From: an uncultured Bacteroidota bacterium
Lineage (GTDB): Bacteria; Bacteroidota; Bacteroidia; Flavobacteriales; Flavobacteriaceae
Reading direction: 5' to 3'
Length of the DNA stretch: 64,000 nt
Assembly: GCA_902595555.1 (NCBI GenBank)
Contig: CACJQM010000001.1
Coordinates: 124,001 to 188,000 of the forward strand
The notes under the pieces were generated by a model. The model was not told the DNA's origin. It saw only the letters and a program-made list of their open reading frames with translations, and ran no database searches. A program made the translations under genes and the position numbers. Below are positions 54,825-64,000 of the stretch, in pieces. Positions within the stretch are counted from its first letter, which is position 1, and each line of letters opens with the position of its first letter.

Positions 54825-55740
54825 TGTCAATTTCATTTATTAAGTCTCTAACATTCTCTTCATTGAACTTTTTACTAAGATCTATGGATAAATCTTCATT
54901 AAGGTTTGATGATTCAACTCTATGTTTAATTGATTTTTTCCCATCCAATGATAAGACAATCCCCTCTAAAATTAGCTTACCTTCATTCACATACGAGTGT
55001 GCACCAATTGGATAATTACATCCACCACCCATTTTTTTCATAAAATTTCTTTCATTTTTTGTGCAAATCATGGTTTTTTCATGATTAATGGTTGAAACAA
55101 TTTTATCAAGCTCATCATTTTTCGAGTTTATTTCAACTGCAATTGCACCTTGACCCGGTGCATTAAGAAATAACTCATATTCTAAATACTCTGTAATATG
55201 TTTATTTAATTTTAATCTTTCTATACCAGCAGCTGCCATCACCAAGCCATCATATTGGCCCTCAATCATTTTTTTTATCCTTGTATCAACATTACCCCTT
55301 ACATCCTTAATTTTAAGTTTAGGATTCAACTTTAAAAGTTGTGCCTTTCTTCTTAGGGATGTAGTTCCAATTAAATCACTTTCAGTAAAATCAGAAAGTT
55401 TTTTATTTTTTCTACTTAAAAAAACATCCTTGGGATTCCCTCTTTTTAAAATAGCACTTATTTTAAGTTCATCTAATTGTTCAACAGGAAGATCTTTTAA
55501 ACTATGTACTGCAATATCTATTTTATTTGTAAGTAATAGTTCTTGAATTTCCTTTACAAAAAACCCTTTATCAAGATTTCTATCAAGTGGCTTATCAAGA
55601 AGAATATCACCTTTTGTTTTGACTTCTAAAACTCCTATATCTAAATCAGGGAAGTTTTTTTTTAACTCTTTTTTTACTTTATGGGTTTGATAAAGAGCTA
55701 ATTTACTTGTTCTAGTCCCAATGACAACTTTATTTCTCAT
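54811..55740 (-). CDS. hemC: Porphobilinogen deaminase
   Basis: Builds hydroxymethylbilane from four porphobilinogens. 309 residues. VIGTRTSKLALYQT, GFFVKEIQELLL, AVHSLKDLP (catalytic Asp83), GTTSLRRKAQL, RGNVDTRI, and cofactor Cys241 in MGGGCNYPIGAHSY are all present. Overlaps hemA by 11 bases and hemD by 14. Confidence 0.96.
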   Translation of the reverse strand: MRNKVVIGTRTSKLALYQTHKVKKELKKNFPDLDIGVLEVKTKGDILLDKPLDRNLDKGFFVKEIQELLLTNKIDIAVHSLKDLPVEQLDELKISAILKRGNPKDVFLSRKNKKLSDFTESDLIGTTSLRRKAQLLKLNPKLKIKDVRGNVDTRIKKMIEGQYDGLVMAAAGIERLKLNKHITEYLEYELFLNAPGQGAIAVEINSKNDELDKIVSTINHEKTMICTKNERNFMKKMGGGCNYPIGAHSYVNEGKLILEGIVLSLDGKKSIKHRVESSNLNEDLSIDLSKKFNEENVRDLINEIDNEIK

Positions 55741-57016
55741 TTAGAAAAATTTGATTTATGACTTCAATCGCTTTTTCATCTTTACCATTGTTGCTGGCTT
55801 TTTTTATTTTTTTTACAAGATTGCTAGAGAATTTATCATAAACTTTGTTAAGGTGAGAATTTAGCTCTTCACCGTTTCTTTCTTCAGAGTAATAGTCTTC
55901 TATGTTATTTAATGTTTCATTAACTATTAATTCTCTTACTTGTTTTTTTAATGATAAAATTGATGGTCTAAGTAATCTTGAATTGGTCCAATCATCAAAC
56001 TCAACTAAAAACTCTTCAATGTATAATTCAGCTTTTATGATTTCACCTTTTCTTTTTTTATAATTTTCATTCACAGCATCCTTAAGATTATCAACATTTA
56101 TTATTTCAATATTATCAAGGTCATACAAGTCAGAGGATAAGTTTCTTGGCACAGATAAATCAACTAAGAGAAGTTTTTTATCTCTTTTTAACGTTATGTT
56201 TGTTAAATCAGATTTTGTAAGGAGTGTATTTTTGGAGCTGGTTGAAAAAATAACCACATCACTTTCTTTTATTTCACTTTTAAAATTTTCAAATTTCACT
56301 GATTCATACCCAAGTTCTTTACAAAACTCATCTGACTTTGATTTAGTTCTATTTGCAATTTTAATATTCTTTATTCCTTTTTGATGTAAGTGTCTTATGG
56401 ATAGCTTTGATGTTTCACCAAGACCAACACACAAAAATTTAGATTTAGTTAAATCATATTTTTTCGTTATTTGTTCAACTGCAGCATAGCTTACTGAAAC
56501 CGCACCTCTGCCTATGTCAGTATTTGTTCTTATGTATTTACCAGTCTCTAATGATTTTTGGATCATTCTTCCAAGGATTGGACCAAGCATTTTATGTTTT
56601 TTTGAAAAATAATATGCATCTTTCAATTGTTCAACAATCTGGAATTCACCAATAATCATAGATTCAAGCCCTGAAACAAGTCTAAACAGGTGATTTGCAA
56701 CATTGTAAGAGCCAGTAAGGTTATTAAGGTAGGGGGAAAGACTGTCTTTATAACTTTTAAAGTCAACTAATTCTTTAACAATTGTGTGTAAAAATTTTTT
56801 TTCCTCTCCGACGTGGTTTTCAAATTCAAAATAAATTTCTGTTCTGTTACATGTTGAAATCATCATTAATCCCTCAACACCTACTTTCTTTTTTAGAAGA
56901 TTATTGAAAACAATTTTTTCAGAATTGTCGAAGTAAAATTTCTCTCTAATTTCTAAGGGAGCAATTTTGTAGTTAATACTTATTAATCCAACCAACTTTT
57001 TGACTTGATATGCCAA
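55730..57016 (-). CDS. hemA: Glutamyl-tRNA reductase
   Basis: NADPH-dependent reduction of glutamyl-tRNA to glutamate 1-semialdehyde, first committed step of the C5 heme route. 428 residues from TTG 57016. Upstream open codons back to a TAG near 57090 contain no ATG and no family match. Nucleophile Cys56 lies in ISTCNRTEIYF; GESQ-like GEFQIVEQLKDAY, RGAVSVSYAAVEQI and the NADP-binding FLCVGLGETSKL follow, with a C-terminal dimerisation helix. It heads the nine-gene hem operon. A palindromic candidate operator overlaps its probable promoter. Confidence 0.95.
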   Translation of the reverse strand: MAYQVKKLVGLISINYKIAPLEIREKFYFDNSEKIVFNNLLKKKVGVEGLMMISTCNRTEIYFEFENHVGEEKKFLHTIVKELVDFKSYKDSLSPYLNNLTGSYNVANHLFRLVSGLESMIIGEFQIVEQLKDAYYFSKKHKMLGPILGRMIQKSLETGKYIRTNTDIGRGAVSVSYAAVEQITKKYDLTKSKFLCVGLGETSKLSIRHLHQKGIKNIKIANRTKSKSDEFCKELGYESVKFENFKSEIKESDVVIFSTSSKNTLLTKSDLTNITLKRDKKLLLVDLSVPRNLSSDLYDLDNIEIINVDNLKDAVNENYKKRKGEIIKAELYIEEFLVEFDDWTNSRLLRPSILSLKKQVRELIVNETLNNIEDYYSEERNGEELNSHLNKVYDKFSSNLVKKIKKASNNGKDEKAIEVINQIFLNEK

Positions 57017-57085: not shown

Positions 57086-57110
57086 CTAATATATAATGAT
57101 TCTAAATAAT
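57086..57110 (-). promoter_or_regulatory. Degenerate Fur/Irr-like palindrome on the probable hemA promoter
   Basis: Read on the minus strand, ATTATTTAGAAT, one central base, then ATTATATATTAG. The two arms match at 8 of 12 positions. The second arm contains TATATTAG (57093-57086), a plausible -7 box for hemA, about 70 bases upstream of its TTG. The ATTCTAAATAAT half, read on plus at 57099-57110, is identical to the half in the copy at 57162-57186. A repressor here would cover the polymerase site. Confidence 0.45.
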
Positions 57111-57161: not shown

Positions 57162-57186
57162 TTTATTTATAATAATTCTAAATAAT
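57162..57186. promoter_or_regulatory. Fur/Irr-like palindrome between the heme and DUF4856 operons
   Basis: TTTATTTATAAT, centre A, ATTCTAAATAAT. The arms pair at 10 of 12 positions, and 22 of 25 bases equal the perfect palindrome at 63864-63888. The inner 15 bases have the 7-1-7 spacing of Fur-family sites: TTATAAT A ATTCTAA. The right half also forms a second hairpin with TTATTTAG at 57190-57197. Confidence 0.55.
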
Positions 57187-57275
57187 ATTTTATTTAGTTA
57201 ATTTATTATAGTTTTTTCTAGTTCACACCTTGAGAGGAACTTAGGTAAACTCAGATTATCTAAGTTCCTTTTTTT
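57164..57275 (+). ncRNA. Candidate iron-responsive small RNA
   Basis: An approximately 110-nt plus-strand transcript is suggested by a TAnnTTTG box at 57151-57158 and a strong intrinsic terminator at 57235-57275 with no protein frame between. The region is AT-rich and includes a hairpin CTAAATAA/TTATTTAG (57178-57197), a single-stranded TTTTTTCTAG segment and the terminator stem. The Fur/Irr-like palindrome over its start suggests metal or heme control. I see no resemblance to a known RNA family. The existence of the transcript is inferred only. Confidence 0.35.
57235..57275 (+). terminator. Strong intrinsic terminator
   Basis: AGGAACTTAG (57235-57244) pairs with CTAAGTTCCT (57260-57269), and the stem extends through one G-U and three A-U pairs to 14 bp with loop ACTCAGA. 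It is followed by a run of T to 57275. The T-run is on the plus strand, where there is no upstream gene before 47.9 kb. On the minus strand the hairpin starts about 7 bases after the DCC stop but lacks a T-run, so it would end that operon poorly. Confidence 0.75.
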
Positions 57276-57666
57276 AATCGATAAACTTATTCTGATATTT
57301 TTTGTCTAGTACTGGACAGTTATCATATTTTCCAAATATGGTGTATCTAGTAGATGCAACAAAATCATAAAAAATATTTAAGAATGCGTATGGTAATATG
57401 CCAATCAAAAGCCTAACAATTAGAAATTTTTTTGTCTTTTTTAGAATGTAGTGTACTGCCTTTGTCTTTCTAATTACTTCTCCATCTTTTAAAATTACGG
57501 CTATTGAATCAGCATTTTTTAATTGATTCATGTTCTTTAATGAAAAATTACTTTGAAAATGGGAGAAGAAGAATACATTTTCTTTATCATTTTTATGAAC
57601 CCATCTAAAAAATGAATTACACATGATACAAACACCATCATATATTATCACATCATTTTTTATCAT
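57274..57666 (-). CDS. DCC-family thiol-disulfide oxidoreductase (DUF393)
   Basis: 130 residues with IIYDGVCIMCNSFFRWV: Asp10, Cys13 and Cys16 give the DxxCxxC motif that names the DCC family. No signal peptide, so cytosolic or peripheral. DCC proteins are predicted thioredoxin-like redox enzymes and are known to co-occur with HTTM proteins; one is encoded two genes upstream here. It is the last gene of the operon and abuts the TonB receptor without gap. A role in reducing or releasing an imported metal is inferred. Confidence 0.87.
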   Translation of the reverse strand: MIKNDVIIYDGVCIMCNSFFRWVHKNDKENVFFFSHFQSNFSLKNMNQLKNADSIAVILKDGEVIRKTKAVHYILKKTKKFLIVRLLIGILPYAFLNIFYDFVASTRYTIFGKYDNCPVLDKKYQNKFID

Positions 57667-60086
57667 TAAAATTTTATTTGCATTGTAAAATATAAATTTC
57701 TAGGTGCTGATGGTATTATACCAGGGCCTGGGTATCCCGTTGCTCTTCTAGTAAAATATTTTTCATTAAACAAGTTATTCACACCAGTCTCAAAGCTAAG
57801 GTTTTTTAACTTATATGAAAGAGATATGTCTGCAAGGCTGTATTTTGGTATCTCACCAATAACACCACTTAAATTGCCTCCAATAGCATTTGATGAATCT
57901 GTAAATTGTTTTGAAATAAATGAATATTGGAAGTTAAATGATAAATTTTTATATCCAAACTTTAAACCTGTCTTCAAATTATGATTTGGAACAAATTCAA
58001 CAGAATTACCTTCAATACCAACCTGATCGGACTCTAGGTATTCAGACTCAATGTATGAGTAATTAACAAAGTAATTAATGTCAATATCATTGTTTTTAAA
58101 AAAGATTTCATTTAAATCAAAATCAAATAATGATTCAATTCCATTAATTCGTGCATTTCCAACATTTCCCCTCTCACTTTTAACATTTCCATCAGGAAAA
58201 ACTTTTTGAACAAATCCTATTCTGTCCTCATAGAGAAGTAAAAAAATATTTGTATCATAAGATATTTTTCTATTTATATTACCTCTAAATCCAAGATCAA
58301 ATGTGTAACCTTTCTCATCATCAATATCGGGATTTACTGCATAGGCTGGGTTTATTATGCTTATGTCAGCAAATGTTACTGATCTGTAGTTTTCGCTTAT
58401 ATTGGTATACATCTCAATATTTCTGTTTGGTTTGTAACTGATACCTAATCCTAGCAACAGAAAATTTCTTTTCTTAACGTCAAGCTCATCATATTTTTCA
58501 TTAAAAATGACGTTACCAGCACCATCTAAATTTATTTTTCTATAAAATCCATCACTCTTAGTTTCAATATTTTCATATCTAAACCCTGGTGTGATTGAAA
58601 AATTCTCAGTTAGGTAAAAAATATTTTCACCAAAAAGTGCAATATTTTTATTAGGATAGGTATAATCTGATTGGTTATTATAATTTGGATATAAAGAGTT
58701 TTGAAAATTAAAATTTGCATCAATTCCATTAGAACCAGGCCCTTGAATACTAGATGAATTGGAATTATAGTATTTCAAACCTATTAAAAAGTAAGATTTA
58801 TTTTTAAATGCTTTATATCTTGTTAGTAACCGTGATTCAAAGCCAAAATTTGAAAAATCGCCTTTAATTAAGTCTCTTTCTTGACCTGTGTCAACTTGAC
58901 TTACTCTGTTAGTTCTAAACCCTAAAGAGTTTCTTTTTGCTTCTAATCCAAAAAAACTAAAAGTGAAGTTTGTTTTGTCTGAAAATTCTTTTTTATACTT
59001 TATATTGTACAACAACCAATCCACTTCAAACCAATTTCTGGATCTATTACTTTGATATGGATCTTCCTTAAACATTTGATCACTAAGTCCGCCTGCCTGT
59101 TGTGCTAAATAGTTTAAATATGTTATTTCTGAACTTAAACTTGTAGAATCATTGAAATTATATTCTAAAAATTGAAAAGTATTTAGGGACTCAAAATTTG
59201 AATTAATTCTAAATCCATCCCCTTTTTTATAATTTATATATCCATAGTAATTTAATTTTTCACCTTTTGAGCTTAAACTTGTGAAGTTGGTAAAGAGATT
59301 ATTTGAACCAATTGTGTTTCTAGTAATTAATTCTAATTTTTTATCTAGGTTTGGTCTTTTCATTATAAAATTTATCAGCCCCCCAAACTGAGTTCCATAC
59401 TGTAATGATGCAGCTCCTCTTAATATCTGAATTTCACTTAAACCTTCAGCAGGTGGTGTGTAATAACTTTCAGGATAACCAAGTGCATCAGCACTAATAT
59501 CATATCCGTTCTGTCTAGTATTAAAATTTGAAGTTCGATTTGGGTCTAGTCCACGTCCTCCGATGTTTAATTGCAAACCTGCATCATCATTTTGGTATAT
59601 ATTTAAACCAGGTATTTGGTTATAAATTTGTCTTGCATTATTTGAGGCCAGGTTTGCCATAGAAAGTTCGAGTAAAATGACTTCATTTTTTTTACCTGCA
59701 AATACAGATGTTTCCTCAAAATCTTTCATTCTTCTGATTTGAAATATTTTTTTCTTATTAGCTCTTACTACAACCTCGTTTAGCTTTTCAACTCTTGATG
59801 AAAGTTTTATATTTAGGTTAACGTTATCTTCATCTAATTGTTTAGAGAGGAGAATGTAACCTTCAATAAAAAATACTATCTCTACTGTGTTTTTATTTTT
59901 TATGAATTCAAAGTAACCATCACTATCGGAGTAATAGATTTGATCGCTGTTGTTATCATAAATTGCAACGTTATTTAAGGGAAGATTTGTGTCTTCATCA
60001 AGAACATAGCCAGAAACTTTTTCCTGCCCTAAACAGAAGTTAATAAAAATCAAAAATACTATGTTAAAGTTTATTAATTTCTTCAT
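57666..60086 (-). CDS. TonB-dependent outer-membrane receptor (FecA-like)
   Basis: 806 residues with a signal peptide (IVFLIFINFCLGQ). Residues about 23-95 are a carboxypeptidase-regulatory-like beta domain (SGYVLDEDTNLPLNNVAIYDN; SDSDGYFEF). The plug follows, with ARQIYNQIPGLNIYQND, GGRGLDPNRTSNFNTRQNGYDI and ILRGAASLQYGTQFGGLINF. A barrel of about 22 strands ends YFTMQIKF. The plug pattern resembles Fe(III)-dicitrate/siderophore receptors. It lies between HTTM (23-base overlap) and DCC genes. Substrate not readable; ferric chelate or heme is likely from context. Confidence 0.9.
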   Translation of the reverse strand: MKKLINFNIVFLIFINFCLGQEKVSGYVLDEDTNLPLNNVAIYDNNSDQIYYSDSDGYFEFIKNKNTVEIVFFIEGYILLSKQLDEDNVNLNIKLSSRVEKLNEVVVRANKKKIFQIRRMKDFEETSVFAGKKNEVILLELSMANLASNNARQIYNQIPGLNIYQNDDAGLQLNIGGRGLDPNRTSNFNTRQNGYDISADALGYPESYYTPPAEGLSEIQILRGAASLQYGTQFGGLINFIMKRPNLDKKLELITRNTIGSNNLFTNFTSLSSKGEKLNYYGYINYKKGDGFRINSNFESLNTFQFLEYNFNDSTSLSSEITYLNYLAQQAGGLSDQMFKEDPYQSNRSRNWFEVDWLLYNIKYKKEFSDKTNFTFSFFGLEAKRNSLGFRTNRVSQVDTGQERDLIKGDFSNFGFESRLLTRYKAFKNKSYFLIGLKYYNSNSSSIQGPGSNGIDANFNFQNSLYPNYNNQSDYTYPNKNIALFGENIFYLTENFSITPGFRYENIETKSDGFYRKINLDGAGNVIFNEKYDELDVKKRNFLLLGLGISYKPNRNIEMYTNISENYRSVTFADISIINPAYAVNPDIDDEKGYTFDLGFRGNINRKISYDTNIFLLLYEDRIGFVQKVFPDGNVKSERGNVGNARINGIESLFDFDLNEIFFKNNDIDINYFVNYSYIESEYLESDQVGIEGNSVEFVPNHNLKTGLKFGYKNLSFNFQYSFISKQFTDSSNAIGGNLSGVIGEIPKYSLADISLSYKLKNLSFETGVNNLFNEKYFTRRATGYPGPGIIPSAPRNLYFTMQIKF

Positions 60087-61422
60087 TTAGAGGTAGTATC
60101 CATTTTTTATTATTAAAGCCTCTTTTTTCTTTTAGCAGATCAACTTTAGGATCAACAAATCTTTTACTCATTCTTCCATTTAGTGCTACGTAACTATCAG
60201 CATAAACCTCAATATTATTATATCCCAGTTCTTTATAGTGATCACCCAAATGATGCGCATATTCAAGAATAAAATCAGGTTGGAAACTCATTTGTCTCTC
60301 TTGAAATTCAGTTAGAAATTCATCATTCATTACGTAAAATGAATTCCCCTTCTCTATATCAACAATTTTAAAAGTGGTGTAACCTCTTTTTTCCATTAAC
60401 ATAACTCGCCAAGAAAATCTGTAACCTTGTTCATTCCAAAATAGTTCACCAGGGTAAAAAGCATATCTAAATGGAAAAATAAATTGGATAATGAAAAAAA
60501 TTGTTACAACTGTTAATGCTATTTTTTCTCTTCTAATATTCACTGTGTTAATTTGTTTTAGGCTTCCCAAAGTCTTGGAAAATGGTTTTAATATAAAATC
60601 AAGTATTTTTTTGTGGGTTTTTGAAGTAAAGAAAATCAAAGATGAAATGATCATTATGTAAGGGAACATTCCAATTGGGAACAGAATTACTGTGAAAATG
60701 TGGAAAAATACAACTAGAATAAAACCAAATATTCTTGTTCTATGGTAAAGAAGAATAAAAGGAATTAAAAGATCATAAAACATGCCTCCCCAACTCATAA
60801 AATAATGAAACCATTCTTGTTGCATAATATTTGACCCAATCAGCGGTAAATCATAGCTTCCCGTGGTCAACCATATTTTTAATGGTTGAGCTTCTAATAA
60901 CCAATCCTTATTAATTTTGGCTAAACCAGCATAAAAATACACAATGAACAATAGAAGTTTTATGCTATCCACACACCATCTCGGAGTATATTTAAATGAT
61001 TTTTTACTTAAATATGAATCCATAGAGTATGATGAGTTTGCAGGAAGAAAAATCATTAAAAAGCTAAGAATACTAACAAAATAATAATGGTTTAGATATG
61101 TAGTCTTATCCATTAATTCAATATAAGTGAAGGACAAAAAGAAAGTTATTATGGATAAGTAATATTTATAACCAATACCAACAAAAAAGGCTGAAATGCC
61201 ACAAATTAGAAAAAGGATATATGTATACTCTTCTATTGGTTTTACCCATTCAAAGCCATAAAAGGTAAAGTGGAATGATGGGTCAATATACATTGTCTTG
61301 ATCCAACCTTTAAACCAAAATCTTATAATACTATAAGTCATTAAAAATCCAAAGCCTAACCGAAATAAGGCTAGACTTGAGGATTCTTGCTTTTTTGAAA
61401 AATAAGATTTTATAATTTCCAA
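60064..61422 (-). CDS. HTTM-domain membrane protein
   Basis: 452 residues from TTG 61422, with a stop in frame 15 bases upstream and no ATG. Several hydrophobic spans: ALFRLGFGFLMTYSIIRFWFKGW at the N-end, CGISAFFVGIGYKYYLSI, LLLFIVYFYAGLAKINKDWL, and GGMFYDLLIPFILLYHRTR. These are HTTM (vitamin-K-carboxylase-like) motifs. A soluble C-terminal domain of about 130 residues follows (YTTFKIVDIEKGNSFYVMN). Bacterial HTTM proteins have no proven activity. Being co-operonic with a TonB receptor and imelysin points to metal uptake or redox. Confidence 0.86.
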   Translation of the reverse strand: MEIIKSYFSKKQESSSLALFRLGFGFLMTYSIIRFWFKGWIKTMYIDPSFHFTFYGFEWVKPIEEYTYILFLICGISAFFVGIGYKYYLSIITFFLSFTYIELMDKTTYLNHYYFVSILSFLMIFLPANSSYSMDSYLSKKSFKYTPRWCVDSIKLLLFIVYFYAGLAKINKDWLLEAQPLKIWLTTGSYDLPLIGSNIMQQEWFHYFMSWGGMFYDLLIPFILLYHRTRIFGFILVVFFHIFTVILFPIGMFPYIMIISSLIFFTSKTHKKILDFILKPFSKTLGSLKQINTVNIRREKIALTVVTIFFIIQFIFPFRYAFYPGELFWNEQGYRFSWRVMLMEKRGYTTFKIVDIEKGNSFYVMNDEFLTEFQERQMSFQPDFILEYAHHLGDHYKELGYNNIEVYADSYVALNGRMSKRFVDPKVDLLKEKRGFNNKKWILPLNEEINKL

Positions 61423-61440
61423 GATTGAAAATTACGATTT

Positions 61441-62568
61441 TTAATCTCCGTCAGCATCTATATAGTCAACTTGGATGCTTAGTAATGAAAGCATATTGGT
61501 TTTCATGTTGACAACAATTGCTTGAAGTTTATCGAATGCATTTAGCATTTTTAATTTATCGTTATTTATTTGATCAACAAAATTAGAATCAAGTAAATCG
61601 ACAGCTTGCTTTGCTTTTTGAAAATTACTTATAATAATTGGACTTAAATTTTCTTTATTAACATCAGCAGCATGTATATAATCTAAGTACGTTTTCAAAC
61701 TTGGTCCAGTTGCTCCGGTTGCAGCTTTACCTAAAAATAAATTCTCAGAAGCAATTACAGCTTCTTTTGCTAAATCTTTTGAGATATCTTGAAATGAGTT
61801 TTTTGAGGAGTAATATGCCTCTACTTTAGAGGGTAGGGTATTTCCCCCAGAGTATACGCCAGCTGGAATACCAATTTTATTTGCTCTTAGTCCTTTTTCA
61901 AAATAGTATACAAAATCATTTGTAATCATATTTAAAGCACTCGTATTTGAATTTCCTGATGATTGAATGAATGAATCTTTATATGATGGCCAATCTTGTA
62001 CAATATCATCAGTATTCTTAGTCATTATTGCTAAAAGATTTTTTAAGTAATCCCCATAATTAGAGTCATTCAAATATTTTTGAATTACCTTTTCTTTTGT
62101 GTCACCAACTCCATGTAGCATGTAGTCGACTCCACTCAAACCTTGTGATGACCAATCATTCGCATTACTCAATTCATACCTTTTAGAGGAAATATTATCA
62201 TTTATTCTCAATTCATCAACTGGATAGGTATTCATAGTGTTGAAATACATTAATTGCTCTGCCTTGCCAATATTGAACATTTCAACGTGTTGCCATGTCT
62301 TGTAGGCATTAAACCACTGGCTGTGTACCTTGTCAAAATTTACTGAATTTGGGTTTGCTACAAAGTCATCAACCGCAATTTTGAGTGCATCAAGGTCTGT
62401 TTTAAAATCATTATATCTAGGTATAATTATGTTTTCAGCGTAATTTTTTAGAATCGTTGATCTATCAAACTCAGGAATATTATCTTGCTCTTCTTCGGAA
62501 TCACCAGAGCAAGCAATTATTAAAAAAATAGAAAATAGGGAAATGAGAGTGTACTTAAATTTTTTCAT
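61441..62568 (-). CDS. Imelysin-family lipoprotein
   Basis: 375 residues; lipobox LIIAC with Cys20, followed by SGDSEEEQ, an acidic stretch like the flavobacterial surface-export signal. Imelysin/EfeO-type helical domain with FDKVHSQWFNAYKTWQHVEMFNIG, the GxxxxD region QGLSGVDYMLHGVGD, and a second four-helix half (GATGPSLKTYLDYIHA). Imelysins (ICMP, IrpA, Algp7) bind iron or related ligands; the classic GxHxxE metal motif is not exact here. It follows DUF4856 after an internal terminator. Confidence 0.87.
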   Translation of the reverse strand: MKKFKYTLISLFSIFLIIACSGDSEEEQDNIPEFDRSTILKNYAENIIIPRYNDFKTDLDALKIAVDDFVANPNSVNFDKVHSQWFNAYKTWQHVEMFNIGKAEQLMYFNTMNTYPVDELRINDNISSKRYELSNANDWSSQGLSGVDYMLHGVGDTKEKVIQKYLNDSNYGDYLKNLLAIMTKNTDDIVQDWPSYKDSFIQSSGNSNTSALNMITNDFVYYFEKGLRANKIGIPAGVYSGGNTLPSKVEAYYSSKNSFQDISKDLAKEAVIASENLFLGKAATGATGPSLKTYLDYIHAADVNKENLSPIIISNFQKAKQAVDLLDSNFVDQINNDKLKMLNAFDKLQAIVVNMKTNMLSLLSIQVDYIDADGD

Positions 62569-62648: not shown

Positions 62649-63833
62649 TTAGATATTCATTTTTGATTTGATTTGACTTACCATTGAAGTTAAATCTGAA
62701 TCCTTAACAGTCCAAAAGTCAGAAAGTTTAGCTAACATAGCATCAACTTCAGCTTTTGTAAAATGTGGGTTATCATTTCCATCATTAGTAAACTGAAGAC
62801 TCATGATAAAACCATATCCTTCAGATAATGCATGAAATGCATCTGCAGTATTACCTGCTGCCATCTTGCTCATGTAACCGTTTAAGTAATCAACAGATTT
62901 GTATCCAATCACTTTTGATAGGTTAATCTTGATGATATTAGCTTGAGCATCTCTAACTTCATAGTTTCCAGCAACAATTGCTGCTCTACCTAATTTAAAG
63001 GCATCATAAACTGTTTGAGAAATACCAGGCATGTTACTATCATTAATTTTTTTGAAATATTTATTTAATGTAGTTCCATTTCCAGTTGGTGCTGATCCTA
63101 AATCAGCTCTAGAGTAATCCGCTTCCTGACCGTAAAGGTATCCAAAAGCTTCATCCCATTTATGCTCCATATCAGTGTAGTTTTTACCGCTTGCTAAGGT
63201 ACCATTAGTATTATCATCTCTTCTTGTTCCTGAATCAAGTTGACAAGGTTGTAGATAATTATTAACGATCTGATCTAAACACATTCCACCAATTAAACCT
63301 TTCACGAAAGTTTGATCGATTTCGTGTCCTGCACCATTAACATGAATACTCCTTGTAGCATCAGTTAATTTACCTGCAACACCTGCGCTAGCATCTGCAC
63401 TCCAAGCAGAAACAACATTAGCAGTAAAGTCAGCTATTTGATCATCGAATTGAGCTTGAGTTGCTGAATTACCAGCAGCACAACCAGCAGAAGTTTTACT
63501 TCTAACTTTTTTGCCTGTTCCGTTCAATGCAGCATTCATAAATCCAGCACCGTCTGCAAACATTGCATCAATTTGAGCTTCAGTGTAAAATTTTTGAGCT
63601 CCACTACCATCATCAGCCTTTGAATTTAACGCGTTATAGATAGCATCTACTTGATTTAATCTAGTAGTTTGTCCTGAGAAAGATACCGTTGATACACCAT
63701 CTCTAAGGAATTCATATGTTGCTGGAGCCGTAACTTCAATAACATTGTCATCATTATCTGAATCACATGAAACAAATAAAAACGAAGTAATCATTACTAA
63801 ACACACCTTTAAAATTGATTTGTAATTTTTCAT
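62649..63833 (-). CDS. DUF4856 family lipoprotein
   Basis: 394 residues; lipobox FVSC (Cys23) then DSDNDDN, an acidic surface-export-like tail. VTAPATYEFLRDGVSTVSFSGQTTRLNQ at the N-end and a helical body with AAGCAAGNS, GMCLDQIVNNYL, DMEHKWDEAFGYLYG and LSEGYGFIMSL identify DUF4856, a family found with imelysins in Bacteroidota. Its codon and amino-acid use is richer in Ala, Gly and Asp than neighbours, suggesting high expression. It is first in the operon, with a palindromic operator upstream and a terminator directly after it. Confidence 0.86.
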   Translation of the reverse strand: MKNYKSILKVCLVMITSFLFVSCDSDNDDNVIEVTAPATYEFLRDGVSTVSFSGQTTRLNQVDAIYNALNSKADDGSGAQKFYTEAQIDAMFADGAGFMNAALNGTGKKVRSKTSAGCAAGNSATQAQFDDQIADFTANVVSAWSADASAGVAGKLTDATRSIHVNGAGHEIDQTFVKGLIGGMCLDQIVNNYLQPCQLDSGTRRDDNTNGTLASGKNYTDMEHKWDEAFGYLYGQEADYSRADLGSAPTGNGTTLNKYFKKINDSNMPGISQTVYDAFKLGRAAIVAGNYEVRDAQANIIKINLSKVIGYKSVDYLNGYMSKMAAGNTADAFHALSEGYGFIMSLQFTNDGNDNPHFTKAEVDAMLAKLSDFWTVKDSDLTSMVSQIKSKMNI

Positions 63834-63851: not shown

Positions 63852-63859
63852 CGAATATA
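63852..63859 (-). promoter_or_regulatory. Probable -7 box of the DUF4856 operon
   Basis: TATATTCG on the minus strand, a one-base variant of TAnnTTTG. The start would be near 63846, giving a leader of about a dozen bases before ATG 63833. The palindrome at 63864-63888 lies immediately upstream. Confidence 0.5.
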
Positions 63860-63863
63860 TATA

Positions 63864-63888
63864 TTTATTTAGAATTATTCTAAATAAA
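63864..63888. promoter_or_regulatory. Perfect 12-1-12 palindrome, Fur/Irr-like operator
   Basis: TTTATTTAGAAT (63864-63875), centre T, ATTCTAAATAAA (63877-63888), every arm base paired. The core TTTAGAA NNN TTCTAAA equals the ICE/Irr-box consensus as I remember it, and the inner 7-1-7 (TTAGAAT T ATTCTAA) has Fur-family geometry. It ends 4 bases from the -7 box of the DUF4856 operon and would block the -33 region. It may also serve the divergent lipoprotein at 63947. Confidence 0.7.
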
Positions 63889-63946
63889 AATAATTTTTTT
63901 TTTAATATTGTTTAAACTAATTTCGTCGATCTAAAAAAAGTAAAAT

Positions 63947-64000
63947 ATGAAGAACTATATCTACCTTGTTGTTATTGTCTTATTATCAAGTTGTATGCCA
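63947..64000 (+). CDS. N-terminus of a lipoprotein, cut by window end
   Basis: ATG 63947 opens 18 codons: MKNYIYLVVIVLLSSCMP, a signal peptide with lipobox LSSC. The gene continues beyond the window. It is divergent from the DUF4856 operon with 113 bases between, and the perfect palindrome lies in that gap, so it may be in the same regulon. A TAATTTCG sequence at 63918-63925 is a possible -7 box. Confidence 0.6.
   Translation, partial: MKNYIYLVVIVLLSSCMP

Follow-up and report, generated by a model that had tools for sequence, protein, structure and literature searches.

A palindrome between divergent iron-uptake operons of an uncultured flavobacterium as a predicted Fur operator

Iron-responsive boxes of Riemerella and other bacteria

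The closest described counterpart of the site analyzed here comes from Riemerella anatipestifer, for which a Fur box, ATTTAGAATTATTCTAAAT, was predicted by software in 2017 (PMC5609570). In the same study, R. anatipestifer Fur shifted four promoters in gel assays, one of them that of sprT, whose listed box hardly fits the consensus (PMC5609570); these shifts therefore say little about sequence specificity. A later paper on the same strain quotes a conflicting, E. coli-type box (PMC7976709), and in Riemerella, mutation of a Fur box has been reported to derepress rhuH (PMC11967795). Among the entries in Table 4 of the 2017 study are genes whose tags are evenly spaced, for a TonB receptor, a vitamin K-dependent gamma-carboxylase, an imelysin and a hypothetical protein, all of which rose 2.11- to 3.07-fold at low iron in the wild type (PMC5609570). 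The block kept its iron response in the fur mutant (2.70- to 3.07-fold). When iron was present, its expression rose by just 1.36- to 1.93-fold in the absence of Fur, and the study's Table 5 gives no box for it (PMC5609570). Thus, Fur may not be the sole controller of the Riemerella block. In Bizionia, loss of the MerR-like protein MliR lowers the expression of an imelysin-like gene and of TonB receptors (PMC9478572), and a second iron regulator therefore exists in the phylum.

The E. coli Fur box is given as GATAATGATAATCATTATC (PMC5609570). Its reader belongs to the same protein family as the candidate regulator of the flavobacterium described here, but the outer half-site is TTAGAAT in the flavobacterial box versus TGATAAT in that of E. 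coli, and the flavobacterial protein has Asn in place of Arg57. In a 7-1-7 reading, the two boxes have the centre AATNATT in common. The PerR box of Bacillus is TTATAATNATTATAA. The flavobacterial system resembles it in the 7-1-7 layout, in an N61-type residue, and in a second box (at 57162), one half of which, TTATAAT, is a PerR half-site; where PerR has Asp104, however, the flavobacterial protein carries the Glu seen in Fur. The system also resembles Irr and its iron control element (ICE), with an TTTAGAANNNTTCTAAA-like sequence, an association with iron and heme genes, and an Asn reading residue in one Irr, but the protein falls into another clade and scores differently on the models. Irr binds DNA in the absence of heme, its co-regulator, and frequently acts as an activator (PMC7762939).

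The palindrome and its divergent gene neighborhood

Within the window, that is, the whole 64,000-nucleotide stretch of DNA that was analyzed, the site reads TTTATTTAGAAT-T-ATTCTAAATAAA, and the original prediction that it forms a perfect 12-1-12 palindrome of 25 bp was confirmed. It is the sole such palindrome in the window, the runner-up among odd palindromes having arms of 10 (Table 1). Its 19-bp core is identical, letter for letter, to the Riemerella sequence ATTTAGAATTATTCTAAAT. Because this 19-mer was predicted for Riemerella in 2017, in a study with Fur gel shifts (PMC5609570), the claim that such a site had not been described for Bacteroidota fails. The sequence and kind of the box are already known from Riemerella; what deserves to be retained is the divergent futABC/imelysin architecture, the link to hemA, and an idea about residue Asn57, discussed below.

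With up to three mismatches allowed, the 25-mer matched twice in the window (starting at 63864 and 57162), compared with a mean of 0.01 in 100 dinucleotide shuffles. The loose core TTTAGAANNNTTCTAAA showed no enrichment in the window at up to three mismatches (28 observed versus 34.7 expected), and at up to two mismatches it was rarer in the whole genome than its reversed control (78 versus 128). Therefore, only near-perfect copies are informative, and the loose pattern with two to three mismatches was dropped as a search motif. A perfect TTTAGAANNNTTCTAAA core was also seen at G000:C1:210676-210694 (L058 5676-5694), 29 bp before a 254-aa gene for which there was no Pfam match and no family; this site had no counterpart among the 22 genus loci examined.

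The box sits in a 113-bp gap that separates two divergent units. The minus-strand unit runs leftwards through genes for a DUF4856 protein, an imelysin, an HTTM/gamma-carboxylase, a TonB receptor and a DCC protein, while the plus-strand unit runs rightwards and encodes a solute-binding protein, a permease and an ATPase (futA/fbpA-B-C). The latter unit lies mostly beyond the window, which holds only its first 54 bases, and the box ends 58 bp from its first gene. The original prediction had correctly set the palindrome beside the −7 box of an iron-type DUF4856-imelysin-HTTM-TonB-DCC operon but had missed that it also faces the divergent futA/fbpA-B-C genes. The best solved relative of the futA/fbpA product is the iron transport protein 2pt1 (E 8.8e-90), and its closest relatives of solved structure bind iron and are of the FutA/FbpA kind; NCBIfam returned transporter names only, all below their cut-offs. 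The DUF4856 protein showed a weak NCBIfam match to an FEA1-related lipoprotein (E 2.6e-6, 26.4 of 250 bits), FEA1 being a name associated with iron assimilation in algae. A terminator-like hairpin, GGAACTTAG...CTAAGTTCC, was noted by eye at 57236-57268 on the minus strand, in the stretch that separates the DCC gene from the hemA boxes.

Table 1. Positions of predicted boxes, promoter elements and genes in the window
Feature	Position	Strand	Details
Fur box (predicted), perfect 12-1-12	63864..63888	none	core 19-mer 63867-63885 equals predicted Riemerella Fur box; conserved in genus and before DUF4856 genes
−7-like element TATATTCG of DUF4856 operon	63852..63859	-	17 bp from box centre
−7-like element TAATTTCG before futA, tentative	63918..63925	+	42 bp from box centre; pattern match only
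futA/fbpA ferric-iron binding protein gene, start	63947..64000	+	341 aa; ends 972 bases past window; followed by permease and ATPase genes
DUF4856 gene	62649..63833	-	PF16148, E 7.1e-93
Imelysin (Peptidase_M75) gene	61441..62568	-	PF09375, E 4.3e-24
HTTM / vitamin-K-dependent gamma-carboxylase-like gene	60064..61422	-	PF05090, PF22777
TonB-dependent receptor gene	57666..60086	-	PF00593, PF07715
DCC1-like oxidoreductase gene	57274..57666	-	PF04134
Second Fur-type box (predicted)	57162..57186	none	2 mismatches to 25-mer; upstream of hemA
Third, weaker box (predicted)	57089..57107	none	19-mer with 2 mismatches; upstream of hemA
hemA glutamyl-tRNA reductase gene, first of hem operon	55730..57016	-	TIGR01035, 359.4 bits versus cut-off 209.55

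The R. anatipestifer system thus shares with this locus the same 19-mer and has a low-iron-induced block of TonB receptor, carboxylase, imelysin and hypothetical genes. In contrast to the Riemerella block, for which no box is listed, a perfect 25-bp palindrome here lies between futABC and the DUF4856 gene; neither futABC nor hemA appears in the available parts of the Riemerella paper (PMC5609570).

Taken together, we consider it highly probable that the palindrome represents the Fur operator of this flavobacterium, as predicted from sequence, and that it serves to shut off both divergent iron-uptake operons at high iron. Fur binding and repression in this organism are what we infer, and the likely reader of the box is the product of the one Fur gene found, P0001. 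When iron is plentiful, an Fe2+-loaded Fur dimer would bind the palindrome and would shut off the DUF4856-imelysin-HTTM-TonB-DCC and futABC operons together; repression of both is proposed because the box abuts the −7 element of the DUF4856 operon and lies just upstream of the likely futABC promoter. As iron falls, Fur would let go, and both divergent operons would be transcribed. An arrangement in which Fur is joined by a second iron-responsive regulator, for example an MliR-like activator, and the latter gives most of the iron response, appears improbable. It would account for the iron response that survives in the Riemerella fur mutant (PMC5609570) and for the lowered imelysin-like and TonB receptor genes upon mliR deletion in Bizionia, but the available parts of the Bizionia paper give no MliR binding site (PMC9478572).

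Conservation of the box and the genes beside it

The reading of the palindrome as a Fur operator is supported by its conservation. In the genus, the 25-mer (up to three mismatches) gave 39 matches in 22 of 23 genomes, compared with none for the reversed control. When one locus per genome was examined (n = 22), 13 sites adjoined fbpA, 7 adjoined hemA and 2 lay elsewhere; at the 13 fbpA-side loci, the opposite partner was a DUF4856 gene in 4, a TonB-type receptor gene in 8 and a contig edge in 1. Therefore, the site tracks futABC and hemA, with DUF4856 as one partner among several. 

Upstream of DUF4856 genes, the 19-mer ATTTAGAATNATTCTAAAT (up to three mismatches, within 300 bp) was present at 63 of 74 loci, which include close relatives and are not independent, while 200 scrambled palindromes of the same composition gave a mean of 0.7 and a maximum of 10. 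The set combines 45 named loci with 30 loci drawn from 34 positives among 147 order genomes, minus 1 with a short upstream region. The remaining 11 upstream regions showed no box at up to three mismatches. Dokdonia, a culturable flavobacterium, is among the carriers of the box. Conservation before orthologous operons, which the original prediction had put forward as its own check, is thus observed, and together with the genus data it supports the proposal of a Fur-family protein acting on a box of Fur-like 7-1-7 geometry at an iron-type operon. The commonest form of the sites was ATTTA(G/A)A-N-T-N-A-N-TCTAAAT. Nineteen of the 63 boxed promoters had the −7 element TAnnTT(T/C)G starting at +17 from the box centre, and 13 had it starting at +37; the window is of the +17 type. 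This places the box against the promoter, as a repressor would need.

Co-occurrence of motif and Fur was counted over 99 genomes of the order. The 77 genomes with a Fur of this type held 384 motif matches versus 90 for the control, and 17 genomes of two families without this Fur held 4 versus 13. A misfit is formed by five Fur-less genomes from families f6 and f11 (three 80-87% complete, the other two 95% and 97%), with 27 motif matches versus 4 for the control. Outside the order, in family f18, this Fur was absent from all four genomes tested, and the seven genomes searched gave 0 motif matches and 2 control matches.

One site per genome was also examined at 29 sites in the order, with a Pfam scan of 20 of the 43 neighboring frames; four feoA, two hemA, the sufS and the futA were named by eye. 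Uptake genes adjoin 10 of these sites (feoA at 5, TonB receptor genes at 2, and a futA-like, an HmuY and a DUF4856 gene), iron-using genes adjoin 8 (nqrA at 3, cytochrome c at 3, a ferredoxin and a sufS-like gene), and 3 adjoin hemA with an araC-type gene opposite. The other 8 have no neighbor of these kinds; of these sites, 3 fall within coding frames in family f16 genomes of 0.6 Mb. The box precedes nqrA, of the Na+-translocating NADH:quinone reductase, in relatives L190, L205 and L211 (box at 1501) and cytochrome c or ferredoxin genes in L188, L192, L193 and L196.

At the hem operon of the window, whose later genes were named hemC, hemD, hemB and hemL by eye from translations, the two predicted boxes are spaced by about 76 bp. 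At 5 of the 7 genus hemA loci, the weaker box has a counterpart some 75 bp away from the first, and at 9 of the 74 DUF4856 loci the gene that diverges across the box is hemA. In the order, own genome included, 16 of 30 hemA upstream regions carried a box, versus a control mean of 0.2. Among 23 boxed hemA upstream regions, a −7-like element lay 141-142 bp downstream of the box centre in 6; in 10 the distance differed (68 to 191 bp), and 7 showed no such element. In this genome, the sole −7-like match near hemA overlaps the presumed hemA start. At three order loci, the box is closer to a divergent araC-type gene (identified by Pfam in L206, by eye in L208 and L210). Given the variable or large −7 distances and the nearer araC-type gene, the view that hemA boxes are simple hemA operators across the order was rejected; hemA is a natural target only in this genus and at the nine DUF4856 loci with a divergent hemA. 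Neither the literature matches listed, outside which subscription journals mostly lie, nor a term look-up in the available parts of PMC5609570 gave a Fur box before hemA in Bacteroidota.

The Fur protein and its DNA-reading residue

The genome, which is 83% complete and whose nearest relatives mark the organism as a flavobacterium, contains a single Fur-family gene, P0001, flanked by purA and relA (names by eye). PurA adjoins Fur at 28 and RelA at 22 of 30 Fur loci of the order, and F. psychrophilum Fur is likewise described in a purA neighborhood (PMC9331221). Of 13 genus genomes, 8 yielded a Fur gene; the other 5, which are 57-75% complete, nevertheless keep the motif. P0001 reached 88.8 bits on the Pfam FUR domain (cut-off 23.1) and stayed below the cut-offs of the NCBIfam Fur equivalogs (63.2 of 220, 51.7 of 146 and 39.2 of 200 bits), which were built for other lineages. 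It scored 53.1 of 180 bits on the PerR model and, of the PerR residues, has the Asn61-type residue but Glu at the Asp104 place, and so does not qualify as PerR. The protein keeps the Fur ligands H33, E81, H88, D89, H90, E101 and H125 (E. coli Fur), with Gln at the H87 and E108 positions. In a tree of 28 rows, P0001 falls, together with 14 relatives, into one group with the Fur proteins of E. coli and alphaproteobacteria (support 96/93), and the Irr and PerR-like rows fall outside the Fur group on long branches, for which the program issued a long-branch warning.

These data bear directly on whether an Irr-type, heme-sensing Fur-family protein, heme-free at low iron as in alphaproteobacteria, reads the site instead. 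The core of the palindrome fits the ICE consensus, hemA has similar boxes, and Methylobacterium Irr shares the Asn reading residue. A Porphyromonas Fur orthologue has in addition been reported to bind hemin, though Porphyromonas Fur was elsewhere found not to bind heme (PMC6613475), and the similar Riemerella operon goes up, not down, at low iron (PMC5609570). P0001 itself scored far below the Irr cut-offs (NF045677, 35.9 of 170 bits; NF045678, 35.3 of 150 bits), its ligands H33, E81, H88, H90 and E101 match those of E. coli Fur, and the tree places it among the Fur proteins. None of 198 Bacteroidota genomes passed the Irr cut-off, and neither did any of 14 control genomes; nevertheless, Methylobacterium Irr scored 212.1 bits against the cut-off of 170, so the model works. 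Irr was therefore rejected as the reader on the basis of model score and tree, the relationship to Irr drawn by the original prediction does not extend beyond look-alike sequence, and control by an Irr-type protein is very unlikely, more so than the second-regulator arrangement above.

Least credible of all is a DtxR-family metalloregulator: this family also uses TTTAG..CTAAA-type palindromes, but DtxR was rejected as the reader, since PF02742 had no match in this 83% complete genome and matched in just three of the 23 genomes of the genus, whereas the motif is in 22 of 23. In Riemerella, moreover, it was Fur that shifted promoters carrying this box (PMC5609570).

With Fur as the preferred reader, the residue at the position of E. 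coli Fur Arg57 may explain the appearance of the box. Asn occupies this position in all 45 Fur rows from 41 genomes; the single Irr and the single PerR-like protein that were compared have it too. In Bacillus, the choice of box is determined by residue 61, which is N61 in PerR and R61 in Fur (PMC8638851, citing Caux-Thang 2015). From the alignments, the substitution of Asn for Arg57 may thus underlie the Irr/PerR (ICE)-like look of the flavobacterial box. Among Fur relatives, those from family f30 have His here (8 of 8 best copies; L269-L276) and the one from f37 has Ser (1 of 1; L267). At least two motif matches were present in 13 of 15 Asn57 genomes, own genome included, and in 0 of 9 genomes with His or Ser (Fisher p 4e-5), a comparison that left out the second, Arg-bearing Fur copies of two f30 genomes and one unaligned copy. 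The GC content of the retrieved Fur loci was 0.46-0.64 in the motif-less genomes versus 0.29-0.45 in the others; because the association is confounded with GC and eight of the nine genomes with His or Ser come from one family, it is only suggestive.

More tentatively, and rather less likely than not, flavobacterial Fur could be a genuine Fur in which Arg has been replaced by Asn, the residue of PerR and Irr, and which would hence read an Irr/PerR-like box. Through this box, it would also govern heme synthesis (hemA) and iron-using respiration, the role that Irr has in alphaproteobacteria, and across Bacteroidota the residue (Asn, His or Ser) would track the box. In uncultured flavobacteria, the palindrome provides a motif with which iron control can be searched for reliably, and the conserved promoter architecture connects the genes for DUF4856, imelysin and HTTM/gamma-carboxylase proteins with iron uptake. 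Finally, the Asn57 idea offers a simple residue-to-box hypothesis for the differences in Fur boxes between phyla.
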